DNA from: a virus
Length of the DNA: 28,231 bases
Strand: one strand, 5' to 3'
Virus record (IMG/VR): IMGVR_UViG_3300047326_000042
Location: 1-28,231 of that record
Shown here piece by piece: positions 12,039 to 23,817 of the stretch. Every line of letters starts with the position of its first letter. Position 1 is the stretch's first letter. The notes below the pieces were generated by a model. It was not told the origin of the DNA. It ran no database searches and saw nothing but the letters and a program-made list of their open reading frames with translations. Position numbers and translations under genes: made by a program.

Positions 12039-14102
12039 CTAACCCTTCGTGAAGAAGGTGATCGTTCGGCGCGCCGCCGCCGCGACGCGTCCACTCTTGC
12101 GCAGTTGCGCGGCACCGGCACCAGCAGCGTTCTGACTCGGATCGGACGTGCGCGACGTGCGCGCTTGGTCGTCGTCGTCGTCATCGTCATCGCCGGCGGA
12201 GCCCGAATAGTCCGGGTCTGGCACTTCGCCGGGATTCCAGGCCGGGTCACTCGCGCTCGGCGCGCCTTTGCGCACCTGCTGCCCTGTGCGCGCGATCATT
12301 TGCGCGCCCTCGGCTGCGATCTCATCCTGTTCTTCCTCGAAGTCGTAGTCCCTTATATCGAACGCCGTGGCGACGATCTGCGCAGCGCGTTTCTTGGAGA
12401 TGTAGTTATCGGATTCGGCGCGCTCGGCGTCGGCGATCGTGACCGAACGGTCCCCTTTGACGATGTCCGGGAAGATGACGTCGCAGGTCATGTCGAGTTC
12501 GCGTTCTTCGCCGCCCTGAACGTAGCCGCGGATCGCATGCAGTGCTGCGCGCACGTCGCCTTTGCGCAGGTGCCGCGCGACGTGCTTGATCGAGTCCTGA
12601 CCGTCCATCGCGTACCAATTCGTTTTCGGCAGCCGCCCCTCGGCCTGCGCGATCTCGCCGACCTTCTTGCTCATCCGCAGCAGCCACGGCCGCACGACGC
12701 GCTGTTGACGCGTCTCGAAGTGCTTCACCGACGGCGTCTCGGCGACGACGGCCGTCGCGCGCGCGCCGCGACTCGTCACGCCGAGATAGTCCTTCACGAT
12801 GTGCATGCCGACGGCGATAATGCCGAGCAGCCCGTCACCGATGCCGATGCCGCCGGTCGACGTCGAGTTCTTGTCGCTCTGCAACGGCTTCACTTCGACC
12901 GCGTCGTTGTGATAGAAGCCTTGCCCCGGCTGTTGGAGGTTCGGCGGGGGCGTCTGGCTCGCGTATGAATTGACCGTATTGACGTCGACGCCGGCGCCCT
13001 TGATCGTGAAGTCCCACGCGAACGCCGCTTGCACGATCGCCTTCAAGGTTTCGGCCGAATAATAATCGCGCAGGCGCTTGAGCCACCCGAGCACCGGAAA
13101 GAGATCCGATCGTCCGCGCTTCTCCCAGGCACTCGCGTTTATCGTCGAATGAATGACGAGATTCGGGTCGAGCTGCCGGAAAATGTACCGGATCATCGGA
13201 TGCTTCGCGTCCGAGTAGAGTTGATATTGCGTCGAGTACATCTGAATAATATACGCGACGTCGTCGAGGTTCTCGGGGTCCGTGACGTAGTCGGGGATCG
13301 TCGAGGGCTCGAGCATCGCGATCAGCGGCGGGCGGTCGCCTTGCGGGAAAAACCGCGTCCAATTCTCGCCGTCGCGGAACCAATCGAGCAGCCACGTGTA
13401 GATGCGTTCTTCGCCGCGGTTGAGTTCCCAAAACGCGTCCCACTCCTTCTGAACGAGTGGGTCCTTGAAGACCATCTGGAAACCGCGACCCAGCACGAAG
13501 TCGACGATGATGCCGAGCGCGCCTTTGGCGACCGGATCATGCGACGCCGCCCAAAAACATTTCGCGAGCATTGACCAATAGTCGTAGAGATACAACTGCT
13601 GGTTGTACGGCCCGTTCCCGAGCGGCAGCACTTCGTCGGGCGTCGGCGGGCTCGCGCCCGTCCCCGTGTTGCCGACCGCAATCGACTCGTAGTCGTCGAG
13701 TTCGATTCCTTCACGCAGCTTGCGCTGCGCCTCGGCGACTATGCCCTCGTTGCTCGAAAGGACGCGCCGGCGATGCTCAAAGAGCGTCTCGACGAACCCC
13801 TCGAACGTCTTCGCTTTGGTCGCTTCGCGGAGGTCGCCGCGGCCCAGGGTGACCGTTGCGTGTTTGAAGTGCGCCTCGACCGTGACGCGCTTGTCCGGTG
13901 ATTTGACAGCCTCGAAAAATTGGTAGATCGGCGAGTCGGCCGGATCGATCTCGTAGGCGGTCTCATCGGGCGTGTACGGGTCTCGCGGCGATTCGACCGT
14001 GCCGGCAGGATCGTCGTACTGCATCGGCCGGCCGTGCTGATCGACGAACCGCGAGAGCGCAGGTGAGGATTCCTCCTGGCGCCCGACGAGCGCTTCACTC
14101 AC
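12039..14102 (-). CDS. Portal protein
   Basis: A 687-residue protein from a GTG that overlaps the stop of a 28-residue ORF. After a disordered, acidic first 60 residues, it has the long mixed body of a portal: NQQLYLYDYWSMLAKCFWAA, LGIIVDFVLGRGFQMVFKDP, GWLKRLRDYYSAETLKAIVQ, LGIIAVGMHIVKDYLGVTSR, then a stem and clip-like helical region (KHFETRQQRVVRPWLLRMSK). The C-terminus is acidic (DDDDDDDD) and then basic. The length is in the upper range for portals. It would form the dodecameric ring for DNA entry and exit. Position between terminase and protease-capsid agrees, though an 8-kb block separates it from terminase. Confidence 0.85.
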   Translation of the reverse strand: MSEALVGRQEESSPALSRFVDQHGRPMQYDDPAGTVESPRDPYTPDETAYEIDPADSPIYQFFEAVKSPDKRVTVEAHFKHATVTLGRGDLREATKAKTFEGFVETLFEHRRRVLSSNEGIVAEAQRKLREGIELDDYESIAVGNTGTGASPPTPDEVLPLGNGPYNQQLYLYDYWSMLAKCFWAASHDPVAKGALGIIVDFVLGRGFQMVFKDPLVQKEWDAFWELNRGEERIYTWLLDWFRDGENWTRFFPQGDRPPLIAMLEPSTIPDYVTDPENLDDVAYIIQMYSTQYQLYSDAKHPMIRYIFRQLDPNLVIHSTINASAWEKRGRSDLFPVLGWLKRLRDYYSAETLKAIVQAAFAWDFTIKGAGVDVNTVNSYASQTPPPNLQQPGQGFYHNDAVEVKPLQSDKNSTSTGGIGIGDGLLGIIAVGMHIVKDYLGVTSRGARATAVVAETPSVKHFETRQQRVVRPWLLRMSKKVGEIAQAEGRLPKTNWYAMDGQDSIKHVARHLRKGDVRAALHAIRGYVQGGEERELDMTCDVIFPDIVKGDRSVTIADAERAESDNYISKKRAAQIVATAFDIRDYDFEEEQDEIAAEGAQMIARTGQQVRKGAPSASDPAWNPGEVPDPDYSGSAGDDDDDDDDQARTSRTSDPSQNAAGAGAAQLRKSGRVAAAARRTITFFTKG

Positions 14103-14185
14103 AGTCGCGGGCCGTAGGCGATTTCGATCACGAACACCGCGCCGAGAATGAAGACGACGATCGCGAGAATGTCGGCATCGTTCAT
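14099..14185 (-). CDS. 28-residue membrane peptide
   Basis: Starts at ATG 14185 with GAGGGAGGGAG just upstream, giving MNDADILAIVVFILGAVFVI followed by EIAYGPRL, then TGA overlapping the portal GTG. One hydrophobic helix of about 18 residues with an acidic N-terminus suggests a single membrane span. The very strong ribosome site and the coupling to the portal support a real gene. It could modulate the membrane, act like a tiny holin-type peptide, or serve mainly to couple translation. Function is unknown. Confidence 0.55.
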   Translation of the reverse strand: MNDADILAIVVFILGAVFVIEIAYGPRL

Positions 14186-14204
14186 CGGCTCCCTCCCTCG
14201 CGGA

Positions 14205-14393
14205 TTAGGTCGGCGTCGCCGTCGGCGTCGCCTCGTGGCCGTGCTGATGCCAATGCATCGTCCCGAGCTTCGGCTGATGCCACGGCGTGTGCGTCGGCTT
14301 TGGACTCGGCGACGGTGCGGGCGCCTGTACGACGCTGATCGCGGGCTTCGCGAGCGCGAACACGATCAGAACAGCGGCGATGCGTGCGGTCAT
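14205..14393 (-). CDS. Small secreted Pro/His-rich protein
   Basis: A 62-residue protein with a signal peptide (MTARIAAVLIVFALAKPAIS) and a mature part rich in Pro, Thr and His: PAPSPSPKPTHTPWHQPKLG, then TMHWHQHGHEATPTATPT. GAGG lies 7 bases before the ATG. The His-rich section (HWHQHGH) could bind metal such as zinc, copper or nickel, but this is only composition. It is the last of four consecutive exported proteins and precedes the membrane peptide. No Cys, so not a lipoprotein. Function unknown. Confidence 0.6.
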   Translation of the reverse strand: MTARIAAVLIVFALAKPAISVVQAPAPSPSPKPTHTPWHQPKLGTMHWHQHGHEATPTATPT

Positions 14394-14405
14394 TGGGATT
14401 CCTCG

Positions 14406-16895
14406 TTACGGCGTCGGCGGCGCGACGGGCGCGCTCGTCGGGAACGGCGCCGTGTTTACCGCGCCAAGCATCGATTCGTTATTCGTCGCGCTGCACGAAC
14501 CGGACGTGGAGTAGATCGGCGTCGGCAGCGGCAACGGCCCCGAGAACGTGTTCTGGCACGAGATGTCCGGCCAATAGTACCAAAAGAAGATCTTTAGCGG
14601 GTAGCCTGCGGCGTTCGCGTAGTAGATCGCCTCGTCGCGCTGGTATTGCTCCTCGGCCTGCGTCGGGTACAGGCACAGTGAGTAAGACGTGCAGCCACCG
14701 CCGCCTTCTTGATACCACGAGAACGCTTGGCCTACAGCAGATAGCGTTTCGCTCGGATACACCGACGAAGCTACGTTCGCGACGAGGGTCGCTACGACTC
14801 CCATATCTGCGCCGGTCTCCCCGCTACAGATGCCCGCCTGCACGCCCGTCGTCGAATAGCACCACGGATAGTAGTCCCATCCGGTCGCCGGCGTGTAACT
14901 CGAGGTGAGCCACAGGCCGGTGTACGGCGTCGCCCAGGCCGTGCATGTGCTCTGCAAGTTGCAAGAGTACAGGTTTTTCTCTTGCGTGATCGCGTTCGTG
15001 TTCGACGTCGTAAAGCCGCCGCTTGGGATGCCGCCCGGCGTATTGATGCCGAGAATGAGGTGCGTCGTGTCGCCGACGGTATTGCGGATGTACGTCTCGA
15101 CGGCTTGCACGGCTTGATAGTTGCCGCCGGCGAGCGAACTTGCGCAGTAGCCGATGCTCTGATTCGGGCAGCCCGGCTCGTCGTAGATGTACCAGCCCCA
15201 ATTCGTATACGACGACAACGTATTGTAGACGCACTGCAACAGCGCCCCGTCGGTGGTTGGGGTTCCTGGGCACGACGACGCGAGGGTGCCGTCGAGGCTG
15301 TTAATCAGGTTCGTGCCGGTCGCGATGTTCGTGCCGTCCGCGAGAATGGCTTTGATCGAGAACAGCTGGTTCATCACCGGCGTCAAGCCTTCGTCGTAGG
15401 TCAGCCACGACGTGAGGTTCGTTTTGCTCGCGAGCAGTCCGATGTAATTGATTTCGTAGGAGATGCCGATCTGCGACATCGCGAGATCTTGCGCTTCGAG
15501 GCCGGACAGATCGCTGTCGGGTTCGTGGCTGTTGTAGACACCGAACGCGGGCAGTTGGGCCGACGGCGTCGGCGTCGGCGTCGGCGTTGCGGTCGGCGTT
15601 GCGGTCGGCGTGGCCGTGACGAGCGGGCCGGGAACGGTCGCGGTGCCGCACGTGGTCGCGGTCGCGGCGTAGTACCGAATCGCCTTCACCACCTGGAAGT
15701 AGCCCGTCATCTGCGGGAGCGCGGGCGAACAGAAGCTGCCGGTCGCGCAGACCTCGTCGACCAGGATCATATTCATGGCCTGCGTATTGTTCGTGTTCGC
15801 CAGCGACGCTGTCGTTGCGGTGCCGTTGACCGCCATCCACTGCGCGTTACTACCGGAGAGCGCAACGAACCCGAAGGTATTGAATTGCGTCGCGAGCGTC
15901 GGAACCGAGACGTTGAAACTTTGGACATCCGATTGTCCTTGGTCGATCGTCTGCTGGGTCACGTTCTGTCCGACGTATCCGCTGCCGTAGGTCTGCGTGA
16001 TGAGGTTGCCCCGGAAATTGCCGGTGATTTCGTTTAGAAGCCAATCCGTCGCCCAATTTCCCGTAGCGGACGGCTGCATGACGACGATCTCCCAATACCC
16101 CGACGCATAGGCGTGGTACGGGCCGGCATCGAGCAGCGCGCCGAGAGCCGATCTCGGTGTGAAGTCGGTATTGAGCAGCGCATTGATCGCGCTCGTGCCC
16201 TGAAAATACGAGAAATAGACCGTGACACCCGAGGCATGCGTCTTCGCAAAACTCGCGGTGATCGAGTTCGCCGCGACCGCCGTCAGCGTGACCGTCTCTT
16301 GATTCGTGCCGGAGTCGACGATGACCGCCTCGCCGACTTGGTATTGCGTGCCGGTGCCGGCCGTGACGCCGACGAGATGCGATCCGGTCGAGGTGACCGC
16401 TGCCGTCGTGTTGGTTAGCGTCGCGATCGGGTAGGCCGAGAGCATGGCGCCGTACCCCGGCACCATTTGAATCATCGGCGGCAGGCCGTTCGAGCTGATG
16501 ATCGAGAGCGACGGGAAGGCTGCCGTGTCACTGCCATCGGCGCCGGTATTCACGCGGCCGACCGACGATTGATCGGACCAATAGATTCCCGAGCTGCGGC
16601 CCGGCGGATACGTCGGCGGCGGGTAGTTGTCGCTCTCCCATATCCCGCGCTGGTGCAGCCAGAACTCGTCGCCGTCGGCGTAGGTGTAGAGGTGCGAGGT
16701 CGCGCCGGCATCGTCGACGCAGCGGGTCTGATCGCTCGGCTGCGGACTCGGATAGTCGGGACTCGGCGAGGGCGCGGGCGTCGCGCCGGAGTTGCCGAGG
16801 ATCAGAATCGGCCCGGCCGTCGTGGCAAGCAACGATTGCGGGACCGCAGCGATGCCGAGAACGATCAGCGCAAAGACAAGGGCGATGCGACGCAC
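14406..16895 (-). CDS. Large secreted protein: beta modules, Thr-Pro linker, barrel domain
   Basis: An 829-residue protein from a GTG that overlaps the preceding TAG by one base; it begins MRRIALVFALIVLGIAAVPQ, a clear signal peptide. The longer frame to 16964 overlaps the LamG gene and hides the signal, so I rejected it. After a Pro-rich stretch (about 38-55), residues about 160-228 form a KTHASG beta module, then a beta region to about 425. A linker TPTATPTATPTPTPTPS follows. Residues about 448-810 resemble a glycoside-hydrolase-type TIM barrel: WGWYIYDEPG, THLILGINTPGG, WDYYPWCY, LKIFFWYYWPDI. Probably an exported or virion-displayed polysaccharide-binding or degrading protein; catalytic identity is not proven. 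Cys pairs suggest disulphides. Confidence 0.7.
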   Translation of the reverse strand: MRRIALVFALIVLGIAAVPQSLLATTAGPILILGNSGATPAPSPSPDYPSPQPSDQTRCVDDAGATSHLYTYADGDEFWLHQRGIWESDNYPPPTYPPGRSSGIYWSDQSSVGRVNTGADGSDTAAFPSLSIISSNGLPPMIQMVPGYGAMLSAYPIATLTNTTAAVTSTGSHLVGVTAGTGTQYQVGEAVIVDSGTNQETVTLTAVAANSITASFAKTHASGVTVYFSYFQGTSAINALLNTDFTPRSALGALLDAGPYHAYASGYWEIVVMQPSATGNWATDWLLNEITGNFRGNLITQTYGSGYVGQNVTQQTIDQGQSDVQSFNVSVPTLATQFNTFGFVALSGSNAQWMAVNGTATTASLANTNNTQAMNMILVDEVCATGSFCSPALPQMTGYFQVVKAIRYYAATATTCGTATVPGPLVTATPTATPTATPTPTPTPSAQLPAFGVYNSHEPDSDLSGLEAQDLAMSQIGISYEINYIGLLASKTNLTSWLTYDEGLTPVMNQLFSIKAILADGTNIATGTNLINSLDGTLASSCPGTPTTDGALLQCVYNTLSSYTNWGWYIYDEPGCPNQSIGYCASSLAGGNYQAVQAVETYIRNTVGDTTHLILGINTPGGIPSGGFTTSNTNAITQEKNLYSCNLQSTCTAWATPYTGLWLTSSYTPATGWDYYPWCYSTTGVQAGICSGETGADMGVVATLVANVASSVYPSETLSAVGQAFSWYQEGGGGCTSYSLCLYPTQAEEQYQRDEAIYYANAAGYPLKIFFWYYWPDISCQNTFSGPLPLPTPIYSTSGSCSATNNESMLGAVNTAPFPTSAPVAPPTP

Positions 16896-17749
16896 TAGAG
16901 CGCCGAATAATGCGCGGCGATGCGCGTCGTCGAAAGCTCGGTCGAATAGAGGGACACGCAGCACTCATAGCCCGCGATGCTGCCGACGGTCGTGTCGACC
17001 GTGTTATTCGTCGATCGCGAACCCGCGGCACCGACCCACATCGGCCCGGCAACGCTCGACCATGCCGCGTAGTACGTCGCCGTATTCGTAGCGATCGGCG
17101 TGCTGTTGCCGTTTAGGTAGACCTTGATGCCGTTCGTTTTGTCGTAGGTGAATACGAGGTCGTACACCGTTCCGGCCGTTAGGCCGCCGTTCGCTTGCGT
17201 CGCGTTGTTATTGCCGCTGTCTCCAGACACGGTGAGATGGCAGCTCGTCGAATCGGCGACGACGGCCGCGTAAAATGCGCTGCCGGTGCTCCAATCGTCC
17301 ACGAGGGTAAACTGCCCGCCGGAGTTTCCGGTATTGCACTCCTGTGACGCGCTCGGCTTGAAGACGACTTCCCATGTGGCGAAGTTCGTGCTCGGCCAGG
17401 ACGTCAGCGACGTCGACTTCCAGGCGTAGTCCCCCCCCGAGGAGTTGCTCGGGCTGTAGCTCGCAGCGCCCGTGTCGGCCGTGAGCGCCGGGCCGCCGCG
17501 CGTGCCGGAACCGACGTAGGTCAGCGCGTTACCGCCGCTACCGTAGTCCGTCTCCGTGCCGCTCGTCGTCGACATCGGCCAATAGGCATACGGCGAATCC
17601 GCGAGCACCGCGTTCTTGTACGGCGTCGATCCGCCAGGGTTGCCGGCGCCGGTCAGCGTCATCGATGCGACGATCGAGGACGACGACGCGCGAGCGAACG
17701 ACGTCGTCGCGAGCATCGCGACCGCGAGCGCCAGGACGCGGCGAATCAC
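16895..17749 (-). CDS. Secreted LamG-like (concanavalin-fold) protein
   Basis: A 284-residue protein from a GTG overlapping the preceding TGA (GTGA). The signal peptide is MIRRVLALAVAMLATTSFAR, with probable cleavage after Ala-Arg-Ala. Residues about 45-284 match a LamG-like jelly roll: YKNAVLADSPYAYWPMSTTS opening, ATWEVVFKPS, a central FTLVDDWS, TYDKTNGIKVYLNGNSTP and the closing AGYECCVSLYSTELSTTRIA. Such domains bind carbohydrate or other ligands. It lies between two other exported proteins in one overlapping set, so they are probably co-produced. The signal peptide is unusual for a virion protein. Confidence 0.75.
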   Translation of the reverse strand: MIRRVLALAVAMLATTSFARASSSSIVASMTLTGAGNPGGSTPYKNAVLADSPYAYWPMSTTSGTETDYGSGGNALTYVGSGTRGGPALTADTGAASYSPSNSSGGDYAWKSTSLTSWPSTNFATWEVVFKPSASQECNTGNSGGQFTLVDDWSTGSAFYAAVVADSTSCHLTVSGDSGNNNATQANGGLTAGTVYDLVFTYDKTNGIKVYLNGNSTPIATNTATYYAAWSSVAGPMWVGAAGSRSTNNTVDTTVGSIAGYECCVSLYSTELSTTRIAAHYSAL

Positions 17750-18432
17750 TGCTGCACGACCTGTATGCTGCCGGACACCTGCACCGCAGCGGAGGTGAGG
17801 AGGCAGAGCGCGTTCGAGGCGGCCGTCGTATAGTTCGGCGTCGTGCCGGCCGGTTCAACCCAGCCCGCTTGCGCTCCGAGCGGCATCGGCCCGGTCAGCG
17901 TCGTCGTGCCGGTCCCGCACGTCGTGCCGGTCCCATACTCCAGCGTCGCATTGCCGGTGCCGTTCGCCAGCAGCACGACCTTGCAGACGTAAATCGTCTT
18001 CCCCGAAGACAGTGCCTCGAGCTGCGTCGTCGTCGCGGTCGAGACGTTCACGACGACGTTCACGAGCGTTCCGTAGCTGCACGGGTTCGTGGTCTCCGTG
18101 ACGACCTTGCCGTTCGTGTCGACGTCGATCGGCACGGGCCCTGGCGTCGAACAGCCGTAGCACCAGCCCTGTTCGTTCGCGTTGACCGGCAGCGCGGGCG
18201 GATTGCTCGCGGCTTCGCCGGGGCCGGCGGTGTACAGCGGAACGCCGGTCGGCGCCACGACGTTCGCCTTGAGGTTGCCACTCGCATCGGTCGGGTAGGC
18301 GATCGGCGTCGCGTTACCCGAGCCGTTGCCCGCAGCCTGCTGCGCGATCGCCACATCGGACGAGCGCGGCGCGAACATAATGCCAAAGAGTGCAGCGATG
18401 AAGATCGCCGCGAGTGCGATGCGAGTCTTCAT
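17746..18432 (-). CDS. Secreted beta-rich protein of unknown function
   Basis: A 228-residue protein with a signal peptide (MKTRIALAAIFIAALFGIMF, followed by APRSSDVAIA) and GGGGAGG before the ATG. The mature part is Thr/Gly/Asn-rich with paired Cys (WCYGCSTPG; NPCSYGT; CGTGTTT) that could form disulphides after export. The C-terminal half (VPIDVDTNGKVVTETTNPCS to ALCLLTSAAVQVSGSIQVVQ) looks like a beta sandwich. It begins the four-gene exported set and its TGA overlaps the next GTG. No family recognised. Confidence 0.7.
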   Translation of the reverse strand: MKTRIALAAIFIAALFGIMFAPRSSDVAIAQQAAGNGSGNATPIAYPTDASGNLKANVVAPTGVPLYTAGPGEAASNPPALPVNANEQGWCYGCSTPGPVPIDVDTNGKVVTETTNPCSYGTLVNVVVNVSTATTTQLEALSSGKTIYVCKVVLLANGTGNATLEYGTGTTCGTGTTTLTGPMPLGAQAGWVEPAGTTPNYTTAASNALCLLTSAAVQVSGSIQVVQQ

Positions 18433-18451
18433 CCCTGGCCTCCCCTCTTCG

Positions 18452-18751
18452 TCATCCGTTCAGCGCCGCTCCGGCGTAAATGTTCGGCCCGTAGGCCCAC
18501 GTGAGCACGCCGTTCGGCCCCTCAAGCATGAGCTGCACCTGATAGTAGCCCGCCGTCGGAAAGTCGGTCGGCTGCAGTAGGCGCTGCCAGATGTACTGCG
18601 ACGCCTGCTGGAGCGGCCCGATCGTGCGGCCGGTCGCGTCAGCGGGACCCTGCACGACGAGATAGACCGTGTATCCCGTCGCGTCGAACGGCTTGCCGGT
18701 CGGATCGGTCAGCGAAAACTGTTCGTAGATCCCTTGCGCGCCGGCGGTCAC
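18452..18751 (-). CDS. BppU/Ig-like single-domain protein
   Basis: A 99-residue protein from a GTG that overlaps the stop of the repeat protein (GTGA). The frame is open for a long way upstream, but that part is only a shifted reading of the repeats. From the GTG it is MTAGAQGIYEQFSLTDPTGK, then PFDATGYTVYLVVQGPAD, DFPTAGYYQVQLMLEGPN and GPNIYAGAALNG. This order (FSLTD-TGKPFD-G-TVYL, then DFPTAGYY) is the usual pattern of BppU N-terminal or similar phage adhesion-attachment Ig domains. It is probably a joint or tip partner of the repeat protein. Confidence 0.6.
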   Translation of the reverse strand: MTAGAQGIYEQFSLTDPTGKPFDATGYTVYLVVQGPADATGRTIGPLQQASQYIWQRLLQPTDFPTAGYYQVQLMLEGPNGVLTWAYGPNIYAGAALNG

Positions 18752-20649
18752 GTCTGCACGACCATCGGGATCGTGCCCGTGATGAGCTGCCCGTTGACGA
18801 GTTCTTCCATGATCGTCATTTTGTACAGCCCTCCGATCAGCGCGTTCTTCACGAGCGTGGCGCTTGCGATCCGGGTGACCTGCGTCGGCCCGATGAGCGT
18901 CGCGCTGCCGAGCGCATTGATGCGGTTTGTCCCGCTGATCAGCGCCGATGCGGTTGCCGTCTGCGTCCCGCGCGTGCCGAGATAGGCGCTCGCGCCGATC
19001 GCGACGCGAACCTGCTTGAGCGTGGCGCTCGCGCCGCCCGTCACGGAGACGCCGGTCTTTAGCGTCGCGCTCGCGGTCGCGGCCTGCGCGCCGAGGCTCG
19101 TGAGCCGCGCCGATGCGATCTCGGTCGCCGTGGCGCTCGCGCGCAAGGTGGCCGTGGCCGGCGCCGCGATCGAGGTCGTGGTCGAGCCGATCAGTGCCGC
19201 GCTGGCGGTCTTCGTCAGCAGCGCCTTCGTCGCGAGGTCGGCGCTGGCGGTCGCGCTCGTCGATCCGCTCGTCGTGAGATCGGCCGAGGCCGTTGCCGTC
19301 GCGGTCGCGGTCTTCGAGGTCCGCGCGGTCGCGCTCGCGGTGAGGCTGCCCGGCTTCGAGAGCGTCGCGCTCGCTGTGGCGTTCGCCGTCGAGATGACGT
19401 CGAGGTATGCGCTCGCGGTCGCCGTCTTTGCCGTGGCGACGACGAGGTACGCGCTCGATGAGACGCTGGCCGTCGCGCCCTTCGCGAGCACGGCCGAGGC
19501 CGTGGTCGTCTGCGCGGCGGTCGCTTTGAGGTCGGCCGATGCCGTGGCCGTGACGCGCGGCGTCGCGACGAGCGTTGCGCTGCCGGTGGCCGTGCTCGCG
19601 AGCGTGGCGCGCAGCGTGGCGCTCGCGACGGCGGTCGCCGCCGTCTTTGCCGCGAGCGTTGCGCTGGCCGTGCCCGCCTGGGGCGTCGTCGCCTTGAGCG
19701 TCGCGCTCGCGGTCTGCGTGCTCGCTGCGGTCGCCGCAAGGCGCGCGCTGGCCGTGGCCGTGGCCGAGGCTTTGGTCGAGATCGTCGCCGACGCGCTCGA
19801 CGTGCCCATCGCCGGCGCTTTGAGGTCGGCGCTGGCCGTCGCGGTCGCCGCGGCCTTGGCCGAGAGCGTCGCGCTCGCCGTCGCGGTCTGCGTGCCGCTC
19901 GTCGCGTTGAGGGCTGCGCTCGCCGTCGCGGTCTTCGTCGCCTTCGCGGAGAGCGTTGCGCTCGACTGCGACTCGGCATGCGCGCCCGCGATCGTCGTCG
20001 CACTCGCCACGGCCGATGCCGCCGCCTTGGCCGAGAGCGTCGCGCTCGCCGTGCCGGTCGCCGTAGATTTCGCCTTGAACGTCGCGCTCGCGGTTGCCGC
20101 GGCCGCGACGTTCCCGAGCAGCGTGGCGCTCGAGGCCGGCTGCACCGCCGTCGTTGCCTTGAGCGTCGCGCTCGACGCTGCGGTGACCGTCGGATGATAC
20201 AGCGTCGCCGACGCGATCTGCGTCGAGGCGGTCGTCGCTTTGAGCGTGGCACTCGCGATCGCGGTCTGCGCCGTCGTCGATTTGAGGACGGCCGAGGCCG
20301 TGCCGGTCGCGGCCGTCTTCGCCTGGAGCGTGGCCGTTGCGGCCGACGTCCACGGATTCGACGAACTCTTGCACGTCGCGCTCGCGGGTGCCGAGAACGC
20401 AACGGTCGCTTTGACGACCGCCGACCCCGTCGCCGTCTGGACCGTCGTGACCGAGATCCGCGCGCTGCCGGTCGCGGTCTTGACCGTGGTCGATTGGAGG
20501 ACCGCGCTCGCACCCGAGGTGACCAGGCCCGAGTGCGAGAGCGTTGCCGTCGCGGTCGTCGTTTGCGCCGTCGTGATCGACAGGCGCGCAGAAGCCGATA
20601 CCGGGACCGTTCCCTGTCCAACGCCCGAGAGGAACAGAAGAAACGGCAT
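18748..20649 (-). CDS. 14-residue repeat fibre-like protein
   Basis: A 633-residue protein starting MPFLLFLSGVGQGTVPVSAS. From about residue 18 to 607 it consists of about forty degenerate repeats of 14 residues, consensus ASATLxxxxxxxAT (for example ASATLKATTPQAGT, ASATLAAKTAATAV, ASATLRATLASTAT). Ala, Ser and Thr dominate. The alternating small and beta-branched residues suggest a beta-solenoid or repeated beta-hairpin shaft. The ending KMTIMEELVNGQLITGTIPM is non-repetitive and may be an attachment foot. It is probably a fibre or spike. The downstream BppU-like gene overlaps its stop. No catalytic sequence. Confidence 0.7.
   Translation of the reverse strand: MPFLLFLSGVGQGTVPVSASARLSITTAQTTTATATLSHSGLVTSGASAVLQSTTVKTATGSARISVTTVQTATGSAVVKATVAFSAPASATCKSSSNPWTSAATATLQAKTAATGTASAVLKSTTAQTAIASATLKATTASTQIASATLYHPTVTAASSATLKATTAVQPASSATLLGNVAAAATASATFKAKSTATGTASATLSAKAAASAVASATTIAGAHAESQSSATLSAKATKTATASAALNATSGTQTATASATLSAKAAATATASADLKAPAMGTSSASATISTKASATATASARLAATAASTQTASATLKATTPQAGTASATLAAKTAATAVASATLRATLASTATGSATLVATPRVTATASADLKATAAQTTTASAVLAKGATASVSSSAYLVVATAKTATASAYLDVISTANATASATLSKPGSLTASATARTSKTATATATASADLTTSGSTSATASADLATKALLTKTASAALIGSTTTSIAAPATATLRASATATEIASARLTSLGAQAATASATLKTGVSVTGGASATLKQVRVAIGASAYLGTRGTQTATASALISGTNRINALGSATLIGPTQVTRIASATLVKNALIGGLYKMTIMEELVNGQLITGTIPMVVQT
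18829..20598 (-). repeat. About forty degenerate 42-base coding repeats
   Basis: The DNA of the repeat protein cycles with a period near 42 bases, a GC-rich degenerate unit containing GCGAGCGCCACGCTC-like segments on the minus strand. The repetition keeps other frames open on both strands, which explains the long spurious ORFs there. Unit count is estimated from the protein. Confidence 0.75.
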
Positions 20650-20657
20650 GGCTCGAG

Positions 20658-21056
20658 TTAGTTTCCGGTGATGATGATGTTCGCGTTACATGCGGCGGAC
20701 AGCGTGTAGGAGAGGCCGTTTATCAGCCGCATGCGCCAAAGGATGCTTTGCCCGGCGCCGAGCGAGCCCTGAAAGCGCTGATCGGCCGTCGCGCCCGTTG
20801 GGCTCGCGCCTTCGTCGAACAGCGTCAGCACGACCGTTTGCGGCGAGTCTGACGCATTGAAGATGCTGATGAGTTCGGCGAACTGTGTGCCCGCTTGCGT
20901 GAGCAGGTTCGTGATCGTCGTCGCGCTCGCCGGTGTTAGGACCGCGAAGTACGCACCGCCGTCCGAAATAATCTGCGTCTCACCGGACGTCCCATTGATG
21001 ACGGGCACGTTGACGCCCGAACCGGGCGTGTAGCCAACGGTCGCGAGCGACGCCAT
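20658..21056 (-). CDS. Small beta-rich virion-type protein
   Basis: A 132-residue protein starting MASLATVGYTPGSGVNVPVI. It has no signal peptide and no cysteine apart from one near the end (SAACNANIIITGN). The core AELISIFNASDSPQTVVLTL and LGAGQSILWRMRLINGLSYT resemble the small beta-sandwich proteins often next to fibres or in virion accessory sets. It ends 8 bases before the repeat-protein start, so the two are coupled. Exact role unknown. Confidence 0.6.
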   Translation of the reverse strand: MASLATVGYTPGSGVNVPVINGTSGETQIISDGGAYFAVLTPASATTITNLLTQAGTQFAELISIFNASDSPQTVVLTLFDEGASPTGATADQRFQGSLGAGQSILWRMRLINGLSYTLSAACNANIIITGN

Positions 21057-21066
21057 GCGTCAGCCC

Positions 21067-21708
21067 CTACTTCGCTGCGTAGTCGAACGATGCGTGCTGG
21101 TGCGCGAGCGCTTCCTCGAGCGACGCGTGGCTCGCGACGTCGCCGTTGCCGTAGCACTGCGTGATCTCGGCAGTGCCATCGGCCGCGATCGTCCCAAAGA
21201 GCAGCGAGTCTGCCGTGTGGTACGGCGCGCCGCTCGCATCGTTCGTGAGCACGGTACGATGCCCCCAAACGACCGTCACGCCCGGCGCGACCGTGATCGA
21301 TTTCCTCGGCAACATCTGATGATCGAGCGTCACGGGTTCCGCGACGAGCACGAACGGGTCGAACGACGCGGTCGCCTCGAACGCGGGGATCGTCACGTCG
21401 ACCTTCTGGCCGTCGAGTTCGACCGTGTCCACGACGACCGGCTTGAACGCGCCCGGCCATTCGCTGATGTGGTGCCGGTGCGCGATCGGGTCGGTCCCCT
21501 CGCAATCGCACGGGTCGTACTCCGCGAGGATCAGCTTGCCGGACGAATCGGTCACGACCCAAAAATAGCTCGCCGAGTTCGGATCATTGATCCAAGCATT
21601 GCGCCAGGCGATCTCATCGTCGTGCGCATTCTTTGGCGTCTTCGGCTTCGTCGCGTCGACGACGCGGCCGGCGGCCGACTTGGCGCGCAAATAATCGAGC
21701 AGGCTCAT
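21067..21708 (-). CDS. Hypothetical virion-region protein
   Basis: A 213-residue protein starting MSLLDYLRAKSAAGRVVDAT, with GGGGGG about 10 bases upstream of its ATG. A short helical N-terminus leads into a mixed section with EYDPCDCEGTDPIAHRHHIS, a Cys/His cluster that could bind metal, then a beta part (VELDGQKVDVTIPAFEATAS) and a C-terminus with a helix (SLEEALAHQHASFDYAAK). It lies in the block between terminase and portal. I recognise no family; the cluster is only suggestive. Confidence 0.6.
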   Translation of the reverse strand: MSLLDYLRAKSAAGRVVDATKPKTPKNAHDDEIAWRNAWINDPNSASYFWVVTDSSGKLILAEYDPCDCEGTDPIAHRHHISEWPGAFKPVVVDTVELDGQKVDVTIPAFEATASFDPFVLVAEPVTLDHQMLPRKSITVAPGVTVVWGHRTVLTNDASGAPYHTADSLLFGTIAADGTAEITQCYGNGDVASHASLEEALAHQHASFDYAAK

Positions 21709-21723
21709 GCGTTGCGTTCCCCC

Positions 21724-22230
21724 CTAGCTCCAGGTGTAGCCGTAGGACGTCCACGGCGACGGAAATGTCACGTTGCCGCCCGATGCGCTCGCGCCGGTCT
21801 GCAACTGCTGCACCGTATAGGCCGAGTAGGCGTTCAACGTGTTCGCAGGCGCGGTGAACGATGTTCCGGGCGCCGAGGTCTGCGTCGAGCATGCCGTCGT
21901 CGCGACCGAGCTTGCGGTGGCGACCGGGGTCGCGAACGTCGCGTTCACGCCGAACTTCGGCGTGATGTACGTGCTCGAGCCACCGCCGTCCGTCGGTGCG
22001 GTGGCGGAGAAGTAGATCCCGAACGCGGAGAGCGAGTTCGGCGCGACGCCGGTCACCTTAAGCCGGTTGTATTTTTCGTATGAATTGTTGCCGACCGCGA
22101 TCGGATTCGCCGCCGAGAGCGACGAGGTCGATGCGGAGTCGACCGACGCGAACGCGATCTGCGGGACGTTGTCGGTCACCGTCGCGCCCGCGGTGTTCGT
22201 CTCGGACAAAACGAAGGTAGGAGCTGCCAC
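21724..22230 (-). CDS. Beta-sandwich virion-type protein
   Basis: A 168-residue protein from a GTG with GGAGGG 6 bases upstream. It begins MAAPTFVLSETNTAGATVTD and contains ANPIAVGNNSYEKYNRLKVT, a motif (N-P-I, G-N-SYEKY, then a strand) seen in many phage structural beta proteins, followed by AFGIYFSATAP and a Ser/Thr-rich end. It is the first gene after terminase and opens the 8-kb accessory block. Probably a head or tail surface protein; no catalytic motif. Confidence 0.6.
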   Translation of the reverse strand: MAAPTFVLSETNTAGATVTDNVPQIAFASVDSASTSSLSAANPIAVGNNSYEKYNRLKVTGVAPNSLSAFGIYFSATAPTDGGGSSTYITPKFGVNATFATPVATASSVATTACSTQTSAPGTSFTAPANTLNAYSAYTVQQLQTGASASGGNVTFPSPWTSYGYTWS

Positions 22231-22266
22231 GGTGTACCCTCCACAGTAATTTTTGGTGTAGGTGCG

Positions 22267-23817
22267 CTACGTGCGCAAAACAGAAGCGGGCGCCGGCATC
22301 GTCACGTGCGAGTGCATAAACCACGCGGACACGACAGCGGACATCACGCAGTCCTTGACGACCTGATCGTCGTCGTTCGGGCCGGGATAAAATGCGTGCT
22401 CGTCGACCCACGGCTTGATGAACGGCCATCGCACTTGCCGCAGGTTAATCATCCGCTTCCAGATTCCGAGGCCCTCGCGCTTGCGGCCGCCGCGGAAGTC
22501 CATACCGACCGCGCCGACGTCGGCAAGGTCCTCGAGAATCGGGTCGCCGACGCCCGTGGAGTCGACGGCGTTCACGCCGCCATATCGGCGCGCGCGGTCG
22601 CGGATGCGGCTCTTGACATGCGACCAGCCGCGTTTGTTGAATCGCTCGAACTCGACGAGCGTCGCGCGCGGCGTCGTCGAGAGATCCCACGTCGAGCCGA
22701 CCGCCCAATCCGCTTTGTCCGCGAGGTCCCAGCCGGACAGGTAACGGTGCGAGGGATAGCGCTGCAGCCACGACGTGTGCCGGTCCTGGGGCGATGCGCC
22801 TTCTGTGCTGATCGGATACAGGGCGCACCATGCTACGACGTCGTCCTCGTCGACCGCGAGAATCTTTAGCATGTCATTGAGTTCCGAATCGACGGCGGCT
22901 GCCAGATCGTCGCCGTCGAAGAAGTCGCCGTCGCCGTCGATGATCGAGCCGAAGATATTCTGCTCGCGAAGTCGCGGTGACATGCGCGCGGCGTTGCGGC
23001 GCAGGCGCTCTTGGCTGATATGCGGATTGTCGAACGAGCTGCCGCTCTGCGTGTAGAGGTTGCCGACGCGTTCGCGCTGATCGGCGAGCATCTCGTCCAT
23101 GCGCTCGGCCGTGATTGCGCCGGCGGCGACCTGCGCGGCGAGTTCGACCCGGCGCGCCGTATAGCTCATGCCGTCGAGCACGAACTGCCCGAAGTCGTTG
23201 CGCTTGTTTCCGGTCGAGGTGTACGCGAGCGTGCCGTCGCGATCGACCAGGCGCATGCGCAGTACATTGTCCCGTATCTGCAAGAACTTCGGCTCGTAGG
23301 CCGCTTCGTCCCAATTCACGTCATCGTAGGAGTGACCGAGCAGGTGATGCCCGTCGCGCGCGGTCGATCGCGCCTGAAAGACGGCGCCGTTCACGAACAC
23401 GATCGTCGGGAATGGCGTCAGCTTGACATTCTCGACGAGCCACGATGCGCGCTTGCCCTGCAATAGCGCGTGCGCTTTGTACCACACGAGCTGCGCCTGA
23501 TCGGCCGTCACCGAGATATTCAGCGATTGGTACGGCTCGCGCGCGGCTTTCATCTTCGCTGCGGTCTCGGCGGTCCATCCGACCTTGTAGGTGCAGTTTA
23601 TGATGCGCTGCACGGCGGCCGCCGAGGTCTTGCCCCATCGGTTGCCGGTGACGGCCGCGAACTCGTCGGCCTCGGGATGATCACGTGGCGCTTCGAGCCA
23701 TTTCGCCTGTCCGGGGTGCGGCTCAAAGCCGAGGACGTTGCGCGCGAAACTGACCGGGTCGTGGCGATACCGGCGCAGCTCGTCCGCGAACCGTTCGAGT
23801 GTGGCGGCTGCCGGCAC
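22267..23817 (-). CDS. terL: Terminase large subunit
   Basis: A 516-residue protein from a GTG directly after the TerS stop (TAG then GTG). The ATPase half has Walker A TGNRWGKTS (57-65), Walker B SYDDVNWDEA (163-172, acidic E171) and a coupling motif STG (201-203). The RNase H-like nuclease half has SGWDLADKADWAV (acidic D364) and VDSTGVGDP (D419, D425), with further acidic residues at 482-489. These are the hallmarks of the packaging motor that cuts concatemers and pumps DNA through the portal. Full length for the family and no missing catalytic residue seen. Confidence 0.95.
   Translation of the reverse strand: MPAAATLERFADELRRYRHDPVSFARNVLGFEPHPGQAKWLEAPRDHPEADEFAAVTGNRWGKTSAAAVQRIINCTYKVGWTAETAAKMKAAREPYQSLNISVTADQAQLVWYKAHALLQGKRASWLVENVKLTPFPTIVFVNGAVFQARSTARDGHHLLGHSYDDVNWDEAAYEPKFLQIRDNVLRMRLVDRDGTLAYTSTGNKRNDFGQFVLDGMSYTARRVELAAQVAAGAITAERMDEMLADQRERVGNLYTQSGSSFDNPHISQERLRRNAARMSPRLREQNIFGSIIDGDGDFFDGDDLAAAVDSELNDMLKILAVDEDDVVAWCALYPISTEGASPQDRHTSWLQRYPSHRYLSGWDLADKADWAVGSTWDLSTTPRATLVEFERFNKRGWSHVKSRIRDRARRYGGVNAVDSTGVGDPILEDLADVGAVGMDFRGGRKREGLGIWKRMINLRQVRWPFIKPWVDEHAFYPGPNDDDQVVKDCVMSAVVSAWFMHSHVTMPAPASVLRT

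Follow-up and report, generated by a model that had tools for sequence, protein, structure and literature searches.

A run of four predicted signal-peptide proteins among the virion genes of a tailed phage, with similar appendage-type sets in unrelated phages

We found that the window, a 28,231-base linear IMG/VR phage fragment, carries among its late genes four consecutive open reading frames with Sec-type signal peptides, and that comparable sets recur in phages with unrelated head genes. The four genes lie on the minus strand at 17746-18432 (P0001), 16895-17749 (P0002), 14406-16895 (P0003), and 14205-14393 (P0004), as reported in the initial annotation. The stop/start overlaps described there were likewise recovered, with 4 shared bases (GTGA) between P0001 and P0002 and 1 base between P0002 and P0003, while P0004 starts 12 bases past P0003. 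Judged from their sequences, the four proteins are very probably exported by the infected cell. Our preferred reading, held at about even confidence, is that they constitute an exported appendage-type set, which would act free on the polysaccharide around that cell.

Signal peptides were predicted with a home-made, heuristic scorer, which combines the charge of the n-region, a charge-free hydrophobic core, and the -3/-1 rule, and for which the threshold was set to at least 12. The four genes scored 12.7-14.5, compared with 6.7 or less for the other 25 genes of the window, and the adjacency of all four among 29 genes corresponds to p = 0.001. Their products have the features of Sec signal peptidase I substrates, i.e., a positive n-region, an uncharged core, and small residues at -3 and -1. 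When calibrated on a 50-kb segment of E. coli, the scorer recognised seven of the nine exported proteins; of the 31 other genes, one passed wrongly, namely, malG, which encodes an inner-membrane protein. The lambda genes that passed were Lom, Rz, Rz1, and Bor alone; none of the virion genes of lambda and HK97 did so, and shuffled N-termini passed in 7 of 10,000 cases. Thus, signal-peptide prediction on the four products, which had been proposed as a check, was positive with a calibrated scorer.

Cysteine provided a further line of evidence. It is enriched in the four exported genes as compared to the other window genes (26/1403 versus 39/6196; OR 3.0, p = 6.5e-5), and the counts are even throughout (six in P0001, four in P0002, 16 in P0003, and none in P0004), which independently suggests that the proteins fold in an oxidising compartment. 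We therefore consider it very improbable that the proteins are not exported at all, their hydrophobic N-termini being structural (e.g., serving membrane insertion at entry) or their starts being misassigned. This reading could draw on the home-made nature of the scorer, on the GTG start codons of two of the genes, and on an in-frame GTG upstream of the called start of P0003, which would yield an 852-aa version and, if used, an anchor instead of a classical signal peptide. It is opposed, apart from the cysteine enrichment, by the n-h-c architecture of all four proteins and of unrelated homologues, and by the ordinary fibre-region genes of five cultured phages, of which 0 of 17 reached the threshold.

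The minus-strand order of the window is C5 DNA methyltransferase, terS, terL, a block of 8 kb, portal, protease, MCP, head-tail genes, and tail tube. The block is bordered upstream by the terminase large subunit (22267-23817, minus strand) and downstream by the portal protein (12039-14102, minus strand). From terS to the tail tube, the window shares its gene order with G001 (IMGVR_UViG_3300022557_000263, 46 kb), its nearest relative found, with 62% identity in the alignment of the portal, 58% in that of the terminase, and 64% in that of the MCP. In G001, the terminase is followed by the portal with a single short ORF in between, and the 8 kb of the window (14.1-22.3 kb) is absent. Thus, this stretch is an island, which was either acquired by the one phage or deleted from the other, a feature that the initial annotation had not seen. 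Searches with P0003, terL, and a portal profile revealed no close viral or genomic relatives beyond G001. The portal profile matched 0 of 291 in Armatimonadota and 57 of 400 in Chloroflexota; the latter matches were all remote and covered part of the protein, and so do not name the host. Like the window, the relatives are mostly fragments, and the ORFs of uncultured contigs were called mechanically.

The cassette P0001-P0004 forms the final four genes of the island. Upstream of it on the same strand lie three genes without signal peptide (20658-21056, 21067-21708, and 21724-22230, together spanning 20658-22230), a gene for a 633-aa protein (18748-20649; score 6.7, no classical signal peptide), and a 99-aa gene with neither signal peptide nor family match (18452-18751). 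The 633-aa protein consists almost entirely of degenerate ASATLKATTA-type repeats and possibly represents a fibre shaft; its gene has a GC content of about 75% and a strong AT skew. Between P0004 and the portal, we observed a 28-codon ORF, MNDADILAIVVFILGAVFVIEIAYGPRL (14099-14185, minus strand), with a strong ribosome site and a 4-base overlap (GTGA) with the portal start, which from its sequence could encode a single-span membrane peptide.

P0001 (228 aa) comprises a predicted signal peptide, MKTRIALAAIFIAALFGIMFAPRSSDVAIA (about residues 1-30; 18343-18432, minus strand), a linker, and a C-terminal jelly-roll domain (17749-18120, minus strand), and contains conserved cysteines. The AF2 model of the domain (pLDDT 71, pTM 0.65) matched the KHP40 cement protein 7dou (VIA Z 7.9, rmsd 3.5, 105 aligned) and the capsid asymmetric unit of cyanophage Pam1, 7eel (Z 7.7, rmsd 5.1, 110 aligned), with Z values in the range where a common arrangement is possible. 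The KHP40 cement protein was also the top PDB match in Foldseek, and many small proteins of the viral library, some of them named virion proteins, matched the domain. Thus, the modelled domain has the jelly-roll fold of phage decoration/cement proteins, with modest scores. P0001 shares this fold with 7dou and 7eel; in contrast, among the three, a signal peptide and conserved cysteines were noted only for P0001.

P0003 (829 aa) begins with its signal peptide (N-terminus MRRIALVFALIVLGIAAVPQSLLA), followed by an N-terminal half of unmatched fold, a PTATPTPTP linker, and a TIM barrel. A GH16-like reading of the N-terminal half found no match and was dropped. For the C-terminal (β/α)8 domain (14409-15563, minus strand), an alignment of P0003 with its relatives kept the order of the landmarks, with FGVY on strand 1, GWYIYDEP on strand 4, WDxYP on strand 6, QA on strand 7, and PTxxE and FW toward strand 8. 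AF2 on this alignment produced eight β/α units (mean pLDDT 51, pTM 0.58), a model that leans to the glycosidase fold because the alignment contained glycosidases. Its best PDB matches were GH5, PslG, and GH164 enzymes, with a VIA Z of 15.3 against 5msy (rmsd 4.3, 272 aligned). Unaided hhalign support for the barrel was local, with a probability of 56% as compared to 0.1% for the terL control, and a search against PDB sequences gave no meaningful match. The motif GWYxYDEP was found at 23 loci in 84,980 genomes, mostly in cellular TIM-barrel glycosidase-like proteins, while the strict scan of viral contigs gave no match.

The barrel label given initially is thus supported for the C terminus of P0003, whose modelled fold agrees with that of clan GH-A. 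E573, within GWYIYDEP (residues 567-574) at the end of strand 4, is invariant in the alignment (A4) and is the candidate acid/base. However, at the end of strand 7, where the clan carries its nucleophile glutamate, P0003 and its relatives in the same alignment have an invariant glutamine. P0003 is therefore glycosidase-like only and is not assigned to clan GH-A; because the usual second catalytic glutamate is missing, catalysis is unproven. With the GH5, GH39, GH2, and GH158 TIM-barrel hydrolases it shares the eight-fold barrel order and the YDEP on strand 4, but it lacks their strand 7 catalytic glutamate and falls below every Pfam threshold. P0003 also contains a small domain (about residues 136-225; 16221-16490, minus strand), which is 47% identical over 85 aa to a segment of the G001 tail tube protein (G001 28897-29148). 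It had no phage match by tblastn and matched only weakly, to two window genes, g11350 and the tail tube. The presence of this domain in both P0003 and the G001 tail tube suggests exchange between exported and virion proteins.

P0002 (284 aa) carries the signal peptide MIRRVLALAVAMLATTSFARA and a LamG-like domain. It had no direct match to Pfam PF13385 (Laminin_G_3); it did match gp310 of Burkholderia phage FLC9, by tblastn (29%, E = 0.01) and by phmmer, over a stretch that overlaps the PF13385 match of gp310 itself. The LamG-like label thus gains indirect support. FLC9 gp310 has no signal peptide. P0004 (62 aa; N-terminus MTARIAAVLIVFALAKPAISVVQA) combines a signal peptide or anchor with a tail rich in proline and, as first described, histidine. 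Its cleavage site is weak, proline occupies the +1 position of the best late site, and the protein may stay anchored. Neither Pfam, PHROG, nor NCBIfam yielded a family match for any of the four proteins.

We found that similar exported sets are present in other phages. The scan with P0001 matched three other viral contigs, and a search with one homologue identified two near-identical cultured phages, Synechococcus phages Yong-M4-211 and Ssp-JY42. All the homologues read in these five genomes start with a clean signal peptide, and the cysteines of the TTCGTGTT and NALC segments are conserved throughout. The P0001 homologue of the cultured phages follows the tape measure and tail genes and precedes a 786-aa signal-peptide protein with 10 cysteines; the pair in Yong-M4-211 has the accessions UPT53194.1 and UPT53193.1. 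In one of the contigs, G699 (58 kb, GC 42%), seven consecutive genes scored as exported (permutation p = 1e-5) and an eighth was borderline. This run lies immediately upstream of terminase and portal, and includes the P0001 homologue and an S74 chaperone fibre (E = 4.5e-11). G699 additionally encodes a signal-peptide Collar-domain fibre, directly after the DNA ejection proteins, and a signal-peptide GDSL-like hydrolase. Cysteine was again enriched in the exported genes of G699 (OR 3.0, p = 1.4e-8) and Yong-M4-211 (OR 3.4, p = 7e-4). Thus, of the related phages in which the cassette was to be sought, the syntenic G001 lacks it, while unrelated phages have similar sets, a recurrence that the initial annotation had not seen. 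Within the open-licence literature, we found no earlier description of a signal-peptide fibre-type class.

Two further observations concern G699. Its terminase (L060, 10517-12553, plus strand) carries an intein-like insert, CLALGTKVIMFDGSLKQVEDVKHGD, directly behind GGRGGMK, and a Tat-type N terminus, MDISRRFFLGGAISLVAATTFAPSISA, adjoins the capsid genes (L069, 290-772, plus strand; G699 20290-20772).

Although the cassette is absent from G001, this phage has exported-type genes elsewhere, namely, a signal-peptide S74 fibre (E = 1.2e-15) and an opposite-strand lipoprotein-type gene. The fibre starts with MFKRTLAFLLTIGLALAVSTASA and continues as DVPISGLPAATSVSGADTVPIVQSGTTKKAT. In G001, G702, G703, and G704, the fibre domain DVPISGLPAAT stands directly behind the signal peptide. 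Phages L048-L055 have this domain with no signal peptide, its start there reading M(A)DxKISxLPAAT or nearly so; L056/L058, L057 (twice), and L059 have it with one. Three of the five fibre-domain signal peptides scored 10.1-11.7, below the threshold of 12, and were counted by inspection. Because the scan used DVPISGLP as one pattern, the proportion with signal peptide is not a frequency. In L057, the two copies are part of a run of three signal-peptide genes adjoining the portal, while the gene of G704 (L059) is preceded by Baseplate_J and the tail gene next to it, a position usually taken by fibre genes. Since the signal peptide sits where other phages begin the fibre domain, its cleavage would restore an ordinary fibre N terminus.

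The lipoprotein-type gene of G001, MKTRLIAGLVLVAGLAACGGGGGSS (L008, 7071-8099, minus strand; G001 40071-41099), has PTPSP linkers and is placed between the tail-tip gene and the S74 fibre. The 1724-aa tail-tip protein (L008, 1532-6706, plus strand) seems to end in a Hint/intein-like manner, CPSVDQLMLTRRGMIRAGNIVAGDDV...GHNIITY, which is unusual for a tail protein.

The position of these fusions bears on whether the exported proteins are parts of the virion, assembled in two compartments: appendages would pass through Sec, form their disulfides in the periplasm, and be joined to finished virions at lysis. We regard this as a tentative possibility for the cassette and as the main rival of free action, and it is somewhat unlikely that there are tailed phages whose virions are partly built outside the cytoplasm in this way, with fibre and decoration proteins added at lysis. 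Such assembly is favoured by the virion-like folds, by where the genes lie, and by fusions placed exactly at the domain border: P0001 resembles phage cement, turret, and baseplate proteins, the signal peptide stands exactly at the fibre-domain start in four phages, the G704 gene occupies the fibre slot, and the Collar fibre of G699 has a signal peptide, with no fibre candidate lacking one found in that contig. However, the contigs may be fragments, and a cytoplasmic receptor-binding protein could have gone unrecognised; in G001, for example, the tail-tip protein has no signal peptide. The general assumption is that tailed phages make and assemble their fibres and decoration proteins in the cytoplasm, so that docking would have to await lysis, and we know of no case in which a tailed-phage appendage docks after export.

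Cytoplasmic assembly of tailed virions, together with the enzyme- and lectin-like content of the cassette, favours our preferred reading of free action, although the decoration-type jelly roll, the S74 fibres, the Collar fibre, and the gene positions fit a virion role better. We infer that the proteins, encoded with late virion genes and made with cleavable Sec signal peptides, would leave the cytoplasm during infection and then fold and form disulfides, either in the oxidising periplasm or outside. Before and at lysis, P0003 would cut the polysaccharide, surface or extracellular, that surrounds the infected cell and neighbouring cells, and P0002 and P0001 would bind to it. As a result, polymer may be cleared for the progeny, or receptors may be masked. 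The initial interpretation thus stands in part. Export is backed by the signal peptides, the cysteine enrichment, and the signal peptides in every P0001 homologue found; the glycosidase-like barrel and the LamG-like domain agree with the suggested action on extracellular polymer, and the virion-type folds and genomic positions with the suggested later attachment to virions; free and virion-attached action are equally compatible with these data.

Extra genes among or near virion genes are also known from lambda Lom and Bor and from the HK97 tail-operon morons, and both Lom and Bor score as signal peptides. By this precedent, uncleaved or outer-envelope proteins might alter the surface of the infected or lysogenic cell, e.g., excluding other phages. 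The possible anchoring of P0004, the lipoprotein-type gene of G001, and a further exported protein near the lysis genes of G699 would agree with such conversion. Nevertheless, we consider it improbable, as the cassette genes overlap their neighbours at starts and stops, the window fragment contains no integrase, and the large multidomain proteins are unlike small exclusion proteins. A scan of 13900-22400, limited to the sigma-70 consensus, revealed neither a promoter-like site nor, for the coding strand, a terminator-like one; separate transcription of the cassette from that strand is thus unsupported. Lom, Bor, and the HK97 morons, moreover, are single small genes, neither fibre-, lectin-, nor glycosidase-like, and do not form runs of four to eight. 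The analysis yielded no evidence for the blocking of other phages that had been suggested initially.

Signal-peptide endolysins (Lys44 of phage fOg44) and SAR endolysins are phage proteins sent through Sec during infection (PMC6116005). Those are lysis enzymes, whereas the proteins described here are of appendage and polysaccharide type and are encoded in head and tail operons. Peptidase_S74 and Collar tail fibres share their domains with the exported sets of G001 and G699, but ordinary fibres of this kind lack a signal peptide; Peptidase_S74 (PF13884) is absent from P0001-P0004 and was seen only in those two exported sets.

The presence of similar tagged sets in unrelated viruses, two of them cultured, suggests that in some tailed phages appendage-type proteins leave the cytoplasm before the cell bursts. 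This recurrent signal-peptide, cysteine-rich class would represent either a pre-lysis secretome of appendage-type, carbohydrate-active proteins or a part of the virion made outside the cytoplasm. Because a two-gene version is present in the cultured phages Yong-M4-211 and Ssp-JY42, the question is now testable, and either reading would change how phage "tail fibre" genes are annotated and expressed.
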